From NCBI GenBank assembly GCA_003347645.1, contig QDFX01000011.1, forward strand, positions 62,001-126,000: a stretch of 64,000 nt of DNA. Direction: 5' to 3'. The notes under the pieces were generated by a model. That model saw nothing but the letters and a program-made list of their open reading frames with translations, had not been told where the DNA came from and did not search any database. Of this stretch, positions 21,269 through 25,849 are shown one piece after another. The stretch's first letter is position 1, and each line of letters begins with the position of its first letter. The position numbers and the translations under genes are program-made. The DNA is from Rhizobiaceae bacterium CPCC 101076 (lineage in GTDB: Bacteria; Pseudomonadota; Alphaproteobacteria; Rhizobiales; Methylopilaceae).

Positions 21269-21293
21269 GGAACGTGGCTTCGAAGACCGCGTT
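21269..21293 (+). promoter_or_regulatory. Consensus EcfG (general stress) promoter
   Basis: GGAAC (21269-21273), a 16-bp spacer, then CGTT (21290-21293) match the alphaproteobacterial sigma-EcfG consensus exactly. Transcription would begin near 21300, about 40 bp before the small gene at 21340, a normal leader length. Confidence 0.6.
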
Positions 21294-21339: not shown

Positions 21340-21558
21340 ATGAATGTCGGCGAACTGACCAACGAACAGTTGCAGAAGGCCATCTCCGGCCGGCTGACAT
21401 CGGGTGAGCTCGACCTGTTGATGCGCGAAGCGGGCCGCCGCGGGCTCGATATCGACCTCTGCTACGAGGAATATCGCGGCGCGCGCCAGGAAAAAGCGCT
21501 GGTGATCCGCTCCAGGATCACGTTCCAGCCGATGCTGACCGCGTCCGCATCGCGTTGA
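21340..21558 (+). CDS. Small protein of unknown function, coupled to ROK gene
   Basis: A 72-residue hydrophilic protein (starts MNVGELTNEQLQKAISGR), predicted largely helical, with no recognised family. It is supported by its position under the EcfG-type promoter and by the overlap of its TGA with a TTG start of the ROK gene (TTGA at 21555-21558), an arrangement typical of translational coupling. It could be a small partner or regulator of the kinase-like protein. The last 15 residues are Ser/Ala-rich and less conserved-looking. Confidence 0.5.
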   Translation: MNVGELTNEQLQKAISGRLTSGELDLLMREAGRRGLDIDLCYEEYRGARQEKALVIRSRITFQPMLTASASR

Positions 21559-22649
21559 TCGATCCTATGGGGGCGGATGTGAACGACCAGACCGGAATCT
21601 CTCCCGGACTCGCGCCTCATGGCGCGGCGAACCTGCCGAGCGTCGTGCTCGACAGCTACAATCTCGAGGTCAAGGACGAGGAGGGCTTCGTCGGGGACCG
21701 TGCCTCGAACAAGGCGTTCCGCGGACTTCTGGAAGAGCTTCGGAAGCCGCATCGCAAAAATGGGGCCGATCCGCTCGGTGACGAGCCAAGTCTCGAGATT
21801 TCCAAGAAGAAGCTCGATAAGCTCCTCGCGAACGGTGATCTGGAAGCCGCGGGCATCGTCCTGGGCACGATCGAGAAATTTGCCAACGAACTCGCCTTCG
21901 TCATCCGGCGCTTCATGAAACTCAAGGGCTGGAAGGATACCGAGCGGATCGCGATCGGCGGTGGCCTGCGCGATAGCCGGGTCGGCGAACTCGCCATTGG
22001 CCGCGCCGCTGTGATGCTCAAGGAGCAGGACCACGCGATCGACCTTAGGCCGATCCACTATCATCCAGACGAGGCGGGATTGATCGGGGCAATCCATCTC
22101 GCGCCGGCATGGATGTTTTCCGGCCACGACGGGATCATCGCCGTCGATATCGGCGGCACGAACATCCGCTCAGGCGTCGTTTGCACCAATCTCAAAAAGG
22201 CTCAGGACGCATCGCAGGCGGAGGTCGCGTTCTTCGATCTGTGGCGGCACCGGGACGACAAGCCGACGCGCGAGGAAGCGGTCGAGCGCCTCATCGAAAT
22301 GCTTGAGGACCTCATCGCGAAGGCGAAAAAAAACGACATCCAGCTCGCGCCGTTCATCGGCATCGGCTGTCCAGGCTTGATCAATGATGACGGCACGATC
22401 GAGCGCGGATCGCAGAATCTTCCCGGCAATTGGGCGTCGAGCAAGTTCCACCTGCCGACGCTGCTCAAGGAGGCGATCCCGAAGATCGAGGGTTACGAGA
22501 CTGCGATCGTCTTGCATAACGACGCGGTGGTGCAGGGGCTGAGCGAAGTGCCGTTCATGCACGACGTCACGAGCTGGGGCGTCCTGACCATGGGAACGGG
22601 CCTCGGAAACGCGAGATTCACCAACCGGCAAAAACCCGCCAAGACCTAG
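21555..22649 (+). CDS. ROK-type sugar kinase-like protein with permuted motif order
   Basis: 364 residues from a TTG start at 21555 (ATG at 21567 is the alternative). The second half carries the normal beginning of an ROK glucokinase: VDIGGTNIRSG (198-208, ATP site), GIGCPGLIND (269-), HNDAVVQGL (catalytic Asp at 323) and MGTGLGNA (346-353). The usual closing part of the fold, IAIGGGLRD...DEAGLIGAIHLA (132-183), lies before these instead of after them. No ROK zinc-site cysteine motif is seen. It probably phosphorylates a sugar, but the substrate is unknown and activity uncertain. Confidence 0.75.
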   Translation: MIDPMGADVNDQTGISPGLAPHGAANLPSVVLDSYNLEVKDEEGFVGDRASNKAFRGLLEELRKPHRKNGADPLGDEPSLEISKKKLDKLLANGDLEAAGIVLGTIEKFANELAFVIRRFMKLKGWKDTERIAIGGGLRDSRVGELAIGRAAVMLKEQDHAIDLRPIHYHPDEAGLIGAIHLAPAWMFSGHDGIIAVDIGGTNIRSGVVCTNLKKAQDASQAEVAFFDLWRHRDDKPTREEAVERLIEMLEDLIAKAKKNDIQLAPFIGIGCPGLINDDGTIERGSQNLPGNWASSKFHLPTLLKEAIPKIEGYETAIVLHNDAVVQGLSEVPFMHDVTSWGVLTMGTGLGNARFTNRQKPAKT

Positions 22650-22765: not shown

Positions 22766-25700
22766 GTGTCGAACAGCAAGCCTCTGATCACGACGATCCG
22801 CGGCCGCCTCGCTTTGTTGACGCTTGGCCTCTTGCTGCCCGGCATCCTCATTGGCGGCCTGCTGATCTGGGATTCCTACCGGCAGTCTCGCGCTTCGTTC
22901 GAGCGGCAGCTTGCCGAGACGGCACGCGCACTGTCACTGGTTGTCGACCGCCAGCTCGGGCAGGCGGCGGCGCTGAGCAAGGCGCTGGCGACCTCGCCGT
23001 ATATCGCGAATGGCGATTTCATCGCCTTCGACCAGCAGGCCCGAAGCGTGACCGACGGCCGAGAGACCTGGATTGTTCTTTCGGACCAGAACGGTCAGCA
23101 ACTCGTCAACACATCTCGCCCTCTGGGTTCGCCGCTACCCAGTTTCGCACCCGATCCGGCTTCCTGGCGGAAACTGCAATCTGGCGAAACGGTCGTTTCC
23201 AATCTCCTGCGAAACCGGACGCCTGATCAGGCGGTCATCACCATCGACACCCCGATAAGGATCGGGGGGCAAACGCGTTACGCCTTATCCTATGCGATGA
23301 CGCCCACGGTCCTCAGCAAGATCCTGGCCGATCAGAATCTGCCACCGGGCTGGATCGGCAATATCCTGGATGCCGAAAAGAACGTCGTCGCGCGAAGCTA
23401 TCGCAGCGAGGTCGTGATCGGCAGCCAGCCAAGCGCGCCGGTCATCGCCGAGATGGAGAAGGCCGACGAAGGCATCGTCGAAAGTTTCTCGTTCGAAGGC
23501 CGCCCGACTCTCGTCGCCTTCAGCCGCTCCCCGGCCTATCGCTGGACCTTCGGCGTTTCAGTACCTCGTGCGCAATTGCTGACGACGATCACGAGCACGC
23601 TCGCGCTGGCGGCGCTGACCGGGATCATCTTCATGCTGTTGGCCGCTCTGCTATCTGCGAGCGTGGCCCGTGGCATTTCTCGACCGGTAGAGGCCTTGGC
23701 TCGCGGAGCGAGCGCGCTCGGCGCCGGCGAACCGGTCAATGTCCCGCACACCAAGATCCGTGAGATCAACGCCGTCGCCGATAGTCTCAGGAGCGCGGCC
23801 GACACTCTGGCGCATCGTCAGGCCGATCTCAGGGAAAGCGAGTCTCGTCTCAGGCTCGCCGTCCAGGCCACAGGTCTCGGAATCTGGGACTCCGACGCCA
23901 GGACCGGCGCCAGGACGTGGTCGCCCGAATTCCGCGCCATTCTCGGCCTGCCGCAGGATAGCCCGGCGCGGGCCGATCTGTTGGCGGAGCGGATCCATCC
24001 TGAAGATCGCGGGTGGGTGCAGGCGGAATATGACCTGTTCTGCAGCGGCAAGGGCAACGGACATTATGAGGCGGAGTTCCGCATTATTCGCGCTGATACG
24101 GGCGAGGAAGTGTGGGTGACGGCAACCGGCCGCCTGTCCGTCGACGAGGATGGCACGCCGATCCGCGCGAACGGCACATTGATCGACGTGACCGCGCGCC
24201 GTCGTTCGGAACAGACATTGCGCGAAAGCGAAGAGCGGTTCCGCACTATGGCGGATAGCGCGCCGGCTTTGATCTGGCTGAGCGATCCTGCTGGCCAGAT
24301 CACCTTCGCCAATCGGCATTACGAACGTGTCTTCGGCCGTCCGGCTGTCGAGATGCTCGGCAATGGCTGGACCGAGATCATCATCCCCGAGGACGTGCCC
24401 GCCTTCCAGTCCGCGTTCCTGCGTGCGATTGCCGAGCAGGAGCCATTCCGGCAGGACGTTCGCGTTCGCGATGCCATGGGCGAGGTCCGCTGGTTGCGCT
24501 GCGAGGGCGCGCCGCGCCTGTCCGGGCCCGAGGGCAAGTTCCTCGGTTATGTCGGCTGCAATGTCGACATCACCGAAAGCAAGCTCGCGGAAGACGCGCT
24601 CGAGCGGCGCATCGAGGAACGCACCGGCGAGCTTGCGCTCGTCAACTTCCAGCTCCTGTCGCAGATCGACGAGCGCGAGCGCGTGGAGGCGACACTCCGC
24701 CAGGTCCAACGCCTGGAGGCGGTGGGACAGCTGACCTCCGGCGTCGCGCACGATTTCAACAATCTGCTGACCGTCATCCTCGGCAATCTGAGCTTCGCCG
24801 AGCGGACCGTGACCGAGGGGCCGCTGCACAAGCGTCTCGCCAATATGCGCATGGCGGCAGAGCGCGGCGCCTCGCTGGTCGCGCAGCTTCTTGCATTTTC
24901 CCGACGCCAGCGGCTCGCGCCTAAAGCGGTCAATCTCAACGAGACCGTACTCGGCATGCGCGAGCTGCTGCAAAGCTCGATGGGGGGCAGCGTTGCGGTC
25001 GACATCGTGCTCGAGGACGACCTCTGGCCGGCGCTGGTCGACCCGACGCAGATGGAACTCATTATCCTCAACCTCGCGATCAATGCGCGCGACGCGATGG
25101 AAGTCGGCGGGTTGCTGAAGGTCGAGACGTCGAATGCTGAGGTCACCGAACCGGCGACGCGTCCCGAAGAGCCGGCGCCGGGCGACTACGTTGTCGTCTC
25201 GGTCAGCGATTCGGGCTCCGGCATGAGCTCGGAAGTTCTGTCGCGCGTCTTCGAGCCGTTCTTCACGACCAAGGAAGTCGGCAAGGGTTCGGGCCTCGGC
25301 CTCAGTCAGGTGCTCGGCTTCGCCCAGCAATCGGGCGGCGGCGTGCGTATCGAGACCGGCGAAGGGCGAGGGACGACCGTCCAGGTATTCCTGCCTCGTT
25401 CCACCGAGGACGTGACGGTGGCGAAGACACCAAAAACGGCGCGTCGTGCCTCCACGACCGTTCCCTCCATCCTTCTCGTCGACGACGACGATCTCGTCCG
25501 GGAAGTCACCGCGATGAAGCTGGAGGAGTTCGGCTATTCCGTGCAGCAGGCGGCCAACGGCCCGGCGGCGCTCCTCGCCTTCGAGGAGGATGCCGGCTTC
25601 GACATGCTGATCCTCGATTTCGCGATGCCCGGCATGAACGGCGCCGAGGTCGCCCGCGCTGCTCGCAAGAGGCGGCCGAACGTGCCGATCCTCTTCGTGA

Positions 25701-25849
25701 CCGGCTATGCTGACCTGACTGCGCTCGGCGAATTTGCGTCGGAGCCGATTTTGCACAAGCCTTTCAAGGACAGCGACTTATCCGACCAGGTTGCGGAATT
25801 GCTGAAAGGAGCCCGGCAGCCGCAGCGCGCCAAGGCCGCACCCGCGTAA
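22766..25849 (+). CDS. Hybrid sensor histidine kinase/response regulator
   Basis: 1027 residues from a GTG at 22766. Layout: TM1 (about 14-36), extracytoplasmic sensor of the double-Cache kind (37-275), TM2 (277-300), HAMP (to about 350), two PAS/PAC domains (360-485 and 490-615), HisKA with VAHDFNNLLTVILGN (H662), HATPase with NLAINARDAM and GSGLGLSQVLGF, and a C-terminal receiver with LLVDDDD and LILDFAMPG (D951) and HKPFK. It is the HDFNN type that commonly feeds an Hpt protein. There is no adjacent partner; the Hpt/receiver pair at 15.3-16.5 kb is a candidate. The ligand is unknown. Confidence 0.92.
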   Translation: MSNSKPLITTIRGRLALLTLGLLLPGILIGGLLIWDSYRQSRASFERQLAETARALSLVVDRQLGQAAALSKALATSPYIANGDFIAFDQQARSVTDGRETWIVLSDQNGQQLVNTSRPLGSPLPSFAPDPASWRKLQSGETVVSNLLRNRTPDQAVITIDTPIRIGGQTRYALSYAMTPTVLSKILADQNLPPGWIGNILDAEKNVVARSYRSEVVIGSQPSAPVIAEMEKADEGIVESFSFEGRPTLVAFSRSPAYRWTFGVSVPRAQLLTTITSTLALAALTGIIFMLLAALLSASVARGISRPVEALARGASALGAGEPVNVPHTKIREINAVADSLRSAADTLAHRQADLRESESRLRLAVQATGLGIWDSDARTGARTWSPEFRAILGLPQDSPARADLLAERIHPEDRGWVQAEYDLFCSGKGNGHYEAEFRIIRADTGEEVWVTATGRLSVDEDGTPIRANGTLIDVTARRRSEQTLRESEERFRTMADSAPALIWLSDPAGQITFANRHYERVFGRPAVEMLGNGWTEIIIPEDVPAFQSAFLRAIAEQEPFRQDVRVRDAMGEVRWLRCEGAPRLSGPEGKFLGYVGCNVDITESKLAEDALERRIEERTGELALVNFQLLSQIDERERVEATLRQVQRLEAVGQLTSGVAHDFNNLLTVILGNLSFAERTVTEGPLHKRLANMRMAAERGASLVAQLLAFSRRQRLAPKAVNLNETVLGMRELLQSSMGGSVAVDIVLEDDLWPALVDPTQMELIILNLAINARDAMEVGGLLKVETSNAEVTEPATRPEEPAPGDYVVVSVSDSGSGMSSEVLSRVFEPFFTTKEVGKGSGLGLSQVLGFAQQSGGGVRIETGEGRGTTVQVFLPRSTEDVTVAKTPKTARRASTTVPSILLVDDDDLVREVTAMKLEEFGYSVQQAANGPAALLAFEEDAGFDMLILDFAMPGMNGAEVARAARKRRPNVPILFVTGYADLTALGEFASEPILHKPFKDSDLSDQVAELLKGARQPQRAKAAPA

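Follow-up and report, generated by a model that had tools for sequence, protein, structure and literature searches.

Introduction

Sugar kinases of the ROK family (PF00480), which include group B glucokinase, NanK, BglK and PPGMK, carry a DxGGT motif, a PG loop, an NDA motif with the catalytic Asp, a GTG motif and an adenosine GGG motif. A zinc motif (CxCGxxGC) is typical of the family, though not universal, and this motif and ExGH are normally needed for the ROK substrate pocket. ROK repressors bind sugar without phosphorylating it. The protein analyzed here, encoded in a 64-kb window (the whole stretch of DNA under study), shares its fold segments and all five of the first-named motifs with ROK sugar kinases. 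It differs from them in that its halves are exchanged, the family profile is unmatched around positions 142-178, and the chain has new termini and signatures of its own (NLPGNW and DSYN/GDRAS).

Several other kinases resemble this protein in part. Group A (non-ROK) glucokinases (PF02685) also lack the zinc motif, and the C-terminal half of our protein matches them weakly (E 0.17); however, they have the normal segment order and their own signature, and the similarity is much weaker than that to ROK. Tandem hexokinases (human HK1/HK2) run from a C-lobe into an N-lobe within one chain, as the permuted protein does, but they consist of two complete domains, whereas the permuted protein is a single domain of about 340 residues. 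The swap between ADP-glucokinase and KDG kinase (PMC2213659) is likewise a natural non-sequential relation between kinases, although it is small and internal and concerns the ribokinase fold, not ROK. The open-access literature on circular permutation of ROK proteins, sugar kinases, glucokinases, hexokinases or ASKHA proteins yielded nothing on this family, and a review of the glucose kinase superfamily from 2025 is silent on permutation (PMC12696579). Provisionally, a natural permutation of the ROK fold is new to that literature; database records have annotated the protein only as 'ROK family protein'.

Gene and start codon

Translation of the window places the open reading frame at 21555-22649 on the forward strand, with 364 codons as called. 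Its TTG start at 21555 probably lies 8 codons too far upstream. Relatives in the genus start at V/MNDQS, and one of them (L018) has no in-frame start codon further upstream; we therefore favor GTG 21579 (or ATG 21567) as the likelier start, which would give a protein of about 356 amino acids.

Exchanged order of the ROK segments

The first-pass annotation had reported that the motif order of this protein is swapped, with the closing segment first and DIGGT to GTGLGNA second. Both the translation and HMM searches bear this out, and every motif position given proved correct. IAIGGG lies at residues 132-137, and AGLIGA, which normally closes a ROK protein, at residues 174-179 (22074..22091). They are followed by DIGGT at 198-202 (22146..22160; DIGGTN, 198-203), GIGCPG at 269-274, HNDA at 321-324 (22515..22526) and GTGLGNA at 347-353 (22593..22613), so close to the new C-terminus that the stop codon comes 11 residues later.

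Each half of the chain was related to the ROK family by profile searches. Pfam ROK (PF00480) matches residues 195-357 at profile positions 2-141 of 294 (E 5.6e-9), which assigns the C-terminal half (residues 190-359; 22122..22646) to the N-terminal segment of the family; the whole-protein score is 36.4 bits, above the curated cut-off of 22.9. NCBIfam NanK matches residues 116-183 at its positions 221-286 of 288 (E 0.005). The N-terminal half (residues ~20-189; 21606..22121) corresponds to the ROK C-terminal segment, at profile positions of about 179-292. When the halves were scanned alone, the window protein's own N-terminal half gave no Pfam match with the single-sequence HMM, and those of 12 of 25 relatives matched Pfam ROK (best E 2.1e-5), covering 179-292, 180-291 and 196-292 among the matches listed. 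Taken together, the halves cover the ROK model in exchanged order and leave only about 142-178 without a match, the stretch in which ordinary ROK enzymes hold ExGH and the zinc cysteines.

We further compared the family profile by hhalign with 12 normally ordered ROK-type proteins taken from related genomes. The native chain gave two separate matches in exchanged order (172-314 to 3-119, and 106-166 to 242-302), and restoring the halves to ROK order yielded one alignment of 281 columns. The raw score was not raised by de-permutation, the gain being realigned length, and it is therefore the order of the matches, not their score, that we count as evidence. With the termini joined, an alignment to polyphosphate/ATP glucomannokinase crosses the junction as far as query residue 191 with one single-residue gap, pairing GLGNARFTNR into LPxVxVDSYN with GIGSAFIFDG into ELGHLEIDGHD. 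ROK proteins run linearly from N-lobe to C-lobe. Here that order is exchanged, and we therefore file the protein as a permuted variant, not as an ordinary ROK member. A normal second lobe downstream of the gene, which would have spoken against a permutation, is not encoded there; the next gene encodes a PAS sensor histidine kinase.

Predicted fold

An AlphaFold2 model of the full-length protein, built from 25 family sequences, is a confident single domain (mean pLDDT 90.9, pTM 0.89) with disorder confined to N-terminal residues 1-17. The N-terminal half predicted alone reached a pLDDT of 79.8. Its three best PDB folds in Foldseek were all ROK enzymes: 2qm1 (E. faecalis glucokinase), 3r8e and 3vov (Thermus ROK hexokinase), with probabilities of 1.00, 0.99 and 0.99 and a best E of 2.1e-3. 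Together with the Pfam ROK matches (179-292) of the isolated N-halves of relatives, this upholds the expectation that the N-terminal half folds like the ROK C-terminal lobe.

Foldseek alignment depends on chain order. Searched with the whole model, it reached only about 166-177 columns (2.0-3.4 A) with the best-aligned ROK structures, and the best E-value was that of tandem human hexokinase 2 (437 columns, rmsd 30 A). Tandem hexokinases probably come out on top because their chain runs from C-lobe to N-lobe, the path expected of the query; with an rmsd of 30 A, however, this alignment is suggestive only.

These results bear on a reading in which the protein consists of two independent domains, an unrelated helical domain that happens to resemble the end of ROK and a lone ROK N-lobe. 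Single-sequence HMMs do score the N-terminal half weakly, and residues about 60-95 are helical and poorly matched to ROK, as this reading would have it. Against it, 12 of the 25 isolated N-halves match ROK, and any other Pfam family is matched by one of them at most; the top folds of the N-half are ROK enzymes, and the model is one compact unit at pTM 0.89. We regard two independent domains as very improbable. That the protein is an old and conserved circular permutant, of natural origin, of the ROK fold (actin-like ATPase/sugar kinase) is highly likely. In such a permutant, the ancestral C-terminal helix would have been joined directly to the ancestral first strand, with a linker around residues 180-195, and the new termini would lie in the loop that follows the GTG hairpin, at the place where an ordinary ROK protein carries ExGH and the zinc motif.

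Family and distribution

The first-pass annotation had called for homologues with the same swapped order, and these were found in large numbers. Full-length relatives that share this order, at 47-72% identity, are spread across Alphaproteobacteria, and a few genomes of another class have them too. Collinear relatives were present in 16 of 385 sampled alphaproteobacterial genomes, 13 of 101 close-relative genomes, 23 of 399 genomes of the phylum (the other class included) and 2 of 274 genomes of that class. A single-sequence scan of genome contigs gave no relative; a profile scan of named genomes then found 387 stretches with relatives, and the earlier negative is therefore a limit of sensitivity. 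The 80 stretches listed among these 387 are mostly from Bradyrhizobium, with others from Rhodoplanes, Rhodopseudomonas, Nitrobacter and Roseomonas. Relatives were also present in 207 plasmid records, mainly from Rhizobium and Sinorhizobium, and phage records gave no match. The permuted order is thus kept in hundreds of soil and plant-associated bacteria.

Could the order have arisen by decay or assembly error, from a truncated or rearranged ROK gene or from two fragments joined by a frameshift? Such events are the usual reason for an odd motif order in a single genome, the reading frame does end soon after the GTG motif, and one genome holds a second, broken copy. Yet 25 aligned members, 48-71% identical, have the same order and length with about 60 invariant columns, and the family occurs in many complete genomes. 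Homologues conserved in this way rule out decay or artefact. The shared order and the ROK relationship of each half instead agree with the original proposal of a natural circular permutation.

Members of the other class have the same segment order, so the permutation either predates the split of the classes or was transferred. Searching 289 alphaproteobacterial genomes with a de-permuted profile, we found no unpermuted sister, only the two permuted halves and one fragment. The window's own genome also encodes one ordinary ROK protein and one glucokinase-like protein. SMb20485, considered as the S. meliloti relative, was rejected, being an ABC ATPase; in S. meliloti 2011 the gene is on pSymB, at 477,078-478,091. 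In genome G809 the second copy (contig C10:53342-54182; L136, L137) is in two open-reading-frame pieces and is likely a pseudogene, the intact copy being on C28. Two copies 62% identical to the window protein are on contigs titled Frankia sp. RB7 (L067) and Candidatus Binatia (L090), a probable case of mislabelling or binning contamination.

Conserved residues and the acceptor site

The phosphate, catalytic and adenosine motifs of ROK proteins (DxGGT, NDA, GTG, the GG motif and the closing GA segment) are all present and strongly conserved. In the 25-sequence alignment D198, G200, G201 and N203 of the phosphate-1 motif are invariant (position 202 is T or S), as are H321-N322-D323 and the phosphate-2 motif GTGLGNA with G347-T348-G349. 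Also invariant are G135-G137 (21957..21965) and D172, A174, L176 and G178 of the closing segment. By analogy with the ROK family, GGG would serve adenosine binding, and D323 is the predicted catalytic base. QNLPGNW (287-293; 22413..22433) aligns to the N..W of the ROK substrate loop and is invariant (Q287-N288-L289-P290-G291 and W293) except at N292.

The substrate side is different. The zinc motif CxCGxxGC is absent, as first observed, and C272 of GCPG is the one cysteine that family members commonly share. The sugar-contacting ExGH is missing too: positions 26 and 29, which align to its E and H, are variable in the family, and the typical sugar pocket is therefore not kept. The case for an ordinary kinase of glucose or fructose, both among the substrates for which the first-pass annotation suggested an assay, is weakened because these sugar-contacting residues are not conserved. 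Both losses, of ExGH and of the zinc motif, fall precisely where the new termini are. Near the new N-terminus the family has invariants of its own (H22, L27, N36, F45, G47 and D48), which on conservation are candidates for a new acceptor site; W230 and Q287-N288 are further invariant candidates for the pocket.

Loss of ExGH and the zinc motif, in a gene that is mostly solitary and has no conserved pathway neighborhood, would suit a permuted but catalytically dead protein, one that is induced by stress and, like the ROK repressors, binds sugar or nucleotide to sense or regulate. Invariance extends, however, to the predicted catalytic D323 and to every nucleotide motif, and the protein has no DNA-binding domain, only about 20 disordered residues at its N-terminus. 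We consider a dead protein unlikely. That the predicted catalytic Asp is kept speaks for a functional kinase, and the permuted ROK protein is probably active as one. The chain is predicted to form one two-lobed domain with its ATP site intact, so phosphate transfer from ATP to a sugar-like acceptor would most likely be kept, with the acceptor pocket rebuilt. Because the chain is cut exactly at the ROK sugar-contacting and zinc motifs, the family offers a test of how a hinge kinase with two lobes copes with termini that have moved and an acceptor site that has been rebuilt.

Promoter and gene neighborhood

Upstream of the gene, at 21269..21293 on the same strand, lies an exact match to the sigma-EcfG type promoter of the general stress response (GGAAC-N16-CGTT; the regulon motif is GGAAC-N16/17-CGTT). 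The 64-kb window holds two such matches against 1.04 expected, so that a single one is weak alone. Three genus mates have the motif at -285 to -295 from the gene. Among non-redundant alphaproteobacterial relatives, 13 of 37 carry it within 350 nt upstream, against about 0.46 expected, a comparison whose binomial odds ignore the relatedness of the genomes; the positives sit on many branches of the family tree. None of the 5 members from the other class has it. The same genome encodes NepR, and the motif recurs about 190 nt ahead of that locus. In this organism the permuted ROK gene is quite probably under general-stress control, and in Alphaproteobacteria sigma-EcfG would most likely transcribe it as part of the general stress response. 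A strict EcfG motif is missing upstream of the gene in some Bradyrhizobium. In L030, L062, L088 and L036 (Bradyrhizobium and related), AACC-(about 16)-CGTTGT recurs just before the start and is possibly a variant ECF promoter; it was not counted as support.

Neighbor genes were called with a codon-scored ORF finder. Across 143 of them no conserved operon emerged, and the only metabolically meaningful repeat was the trehalose phosphatase gene otsB, which adjoins the gene in L169, L170, L172, L187 and L196. Where it is divergent, the genomes belong to Rhizobium, Shinella (L172) and a distant family (L187, G420); the L187 neighborhood also holds a GH15/trehalase-like gene and a 671-aa protein read by eye as OtsA (glycosyltransferase). 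This adjacency is found in few lineages, most neighborhoods differ, and in the window itself no trehalose gene is next to the ROK gene. In S. meliloti the gene adjoins an NAGGN osmoprotectant peptidase; its relative on a Bradyrhizobium plasmid has a ferritin-like gene nearby and Hsp20 genes further off. The stress promoter, the trehalose neighbors and this osmoprotectant, ferritin and Hsp20 context point to stress physiology.

The kinase might, more specifically, serve the trehalose pathway, either by providing the glucose-6-phosphate from which trehalose-6-phosphate is made or by phosphorylating again the glucose that trehalase releases. Divergent otsB in Rhizobium, Shinella and G420, the GH15 gene and likely OtsA in G420, and the EcfG motif on the ROK side of the locus are consistent with such a role. 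Trehalose synthesis is moreover under the control of EcfG in Bradyrhizobium diazoefficiens (PMC8092242), and in R. etli expression of otsB is induced by (p)ppGpp (PMC3188799). Most relatives, however, lack otsB linkage, and the glucose-contacting ROK residues are not conserved, which leaves a trehalose-pathway kinase possible but doubtful; a trehalose-linked substrate for the permuted protein is a tentative assignment. In some lineages the link to trehalose metabolism might consist in phosphorylation of glucose or a related sugar. Our best reading is a general-stress-response kinase that perhaps feeds trehalose metabolism, and the stress-promoter and trehalose links make this a concrete hypothesis for model rhizobia such as S. 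meliloti and R. etli. The broader proposal of a novel class of permuted actin-like-fold kinases, with new acceptor specificity, the sugar-contacting motif having been replaced where the chain was cut, and a core enzyme role in the general stress response of Alphaproteobacteria, rhizobia included, we put at somewhat under even chances.

Two further genes flank the locus. Between the promoter and the ROK gene lies a forward-strand open reading frame of 72 aa (MNVGELTNEQLQKAISGRLTSGELDLLMREAGRRG...; 21340..21558), which overlaps or abuts the ROK start; it is conserved in two genus mates (L183_-1, L199_-1) and has no Pfam match. Directly downstream, at 22766-25849 on the forward strand, is the PAS/HATPase/receiver hybrid sensor kinase, which could belong to the same stress circuit. 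A hybrid sensor kinase is also found 3' of the ROK gene in three genus mates.
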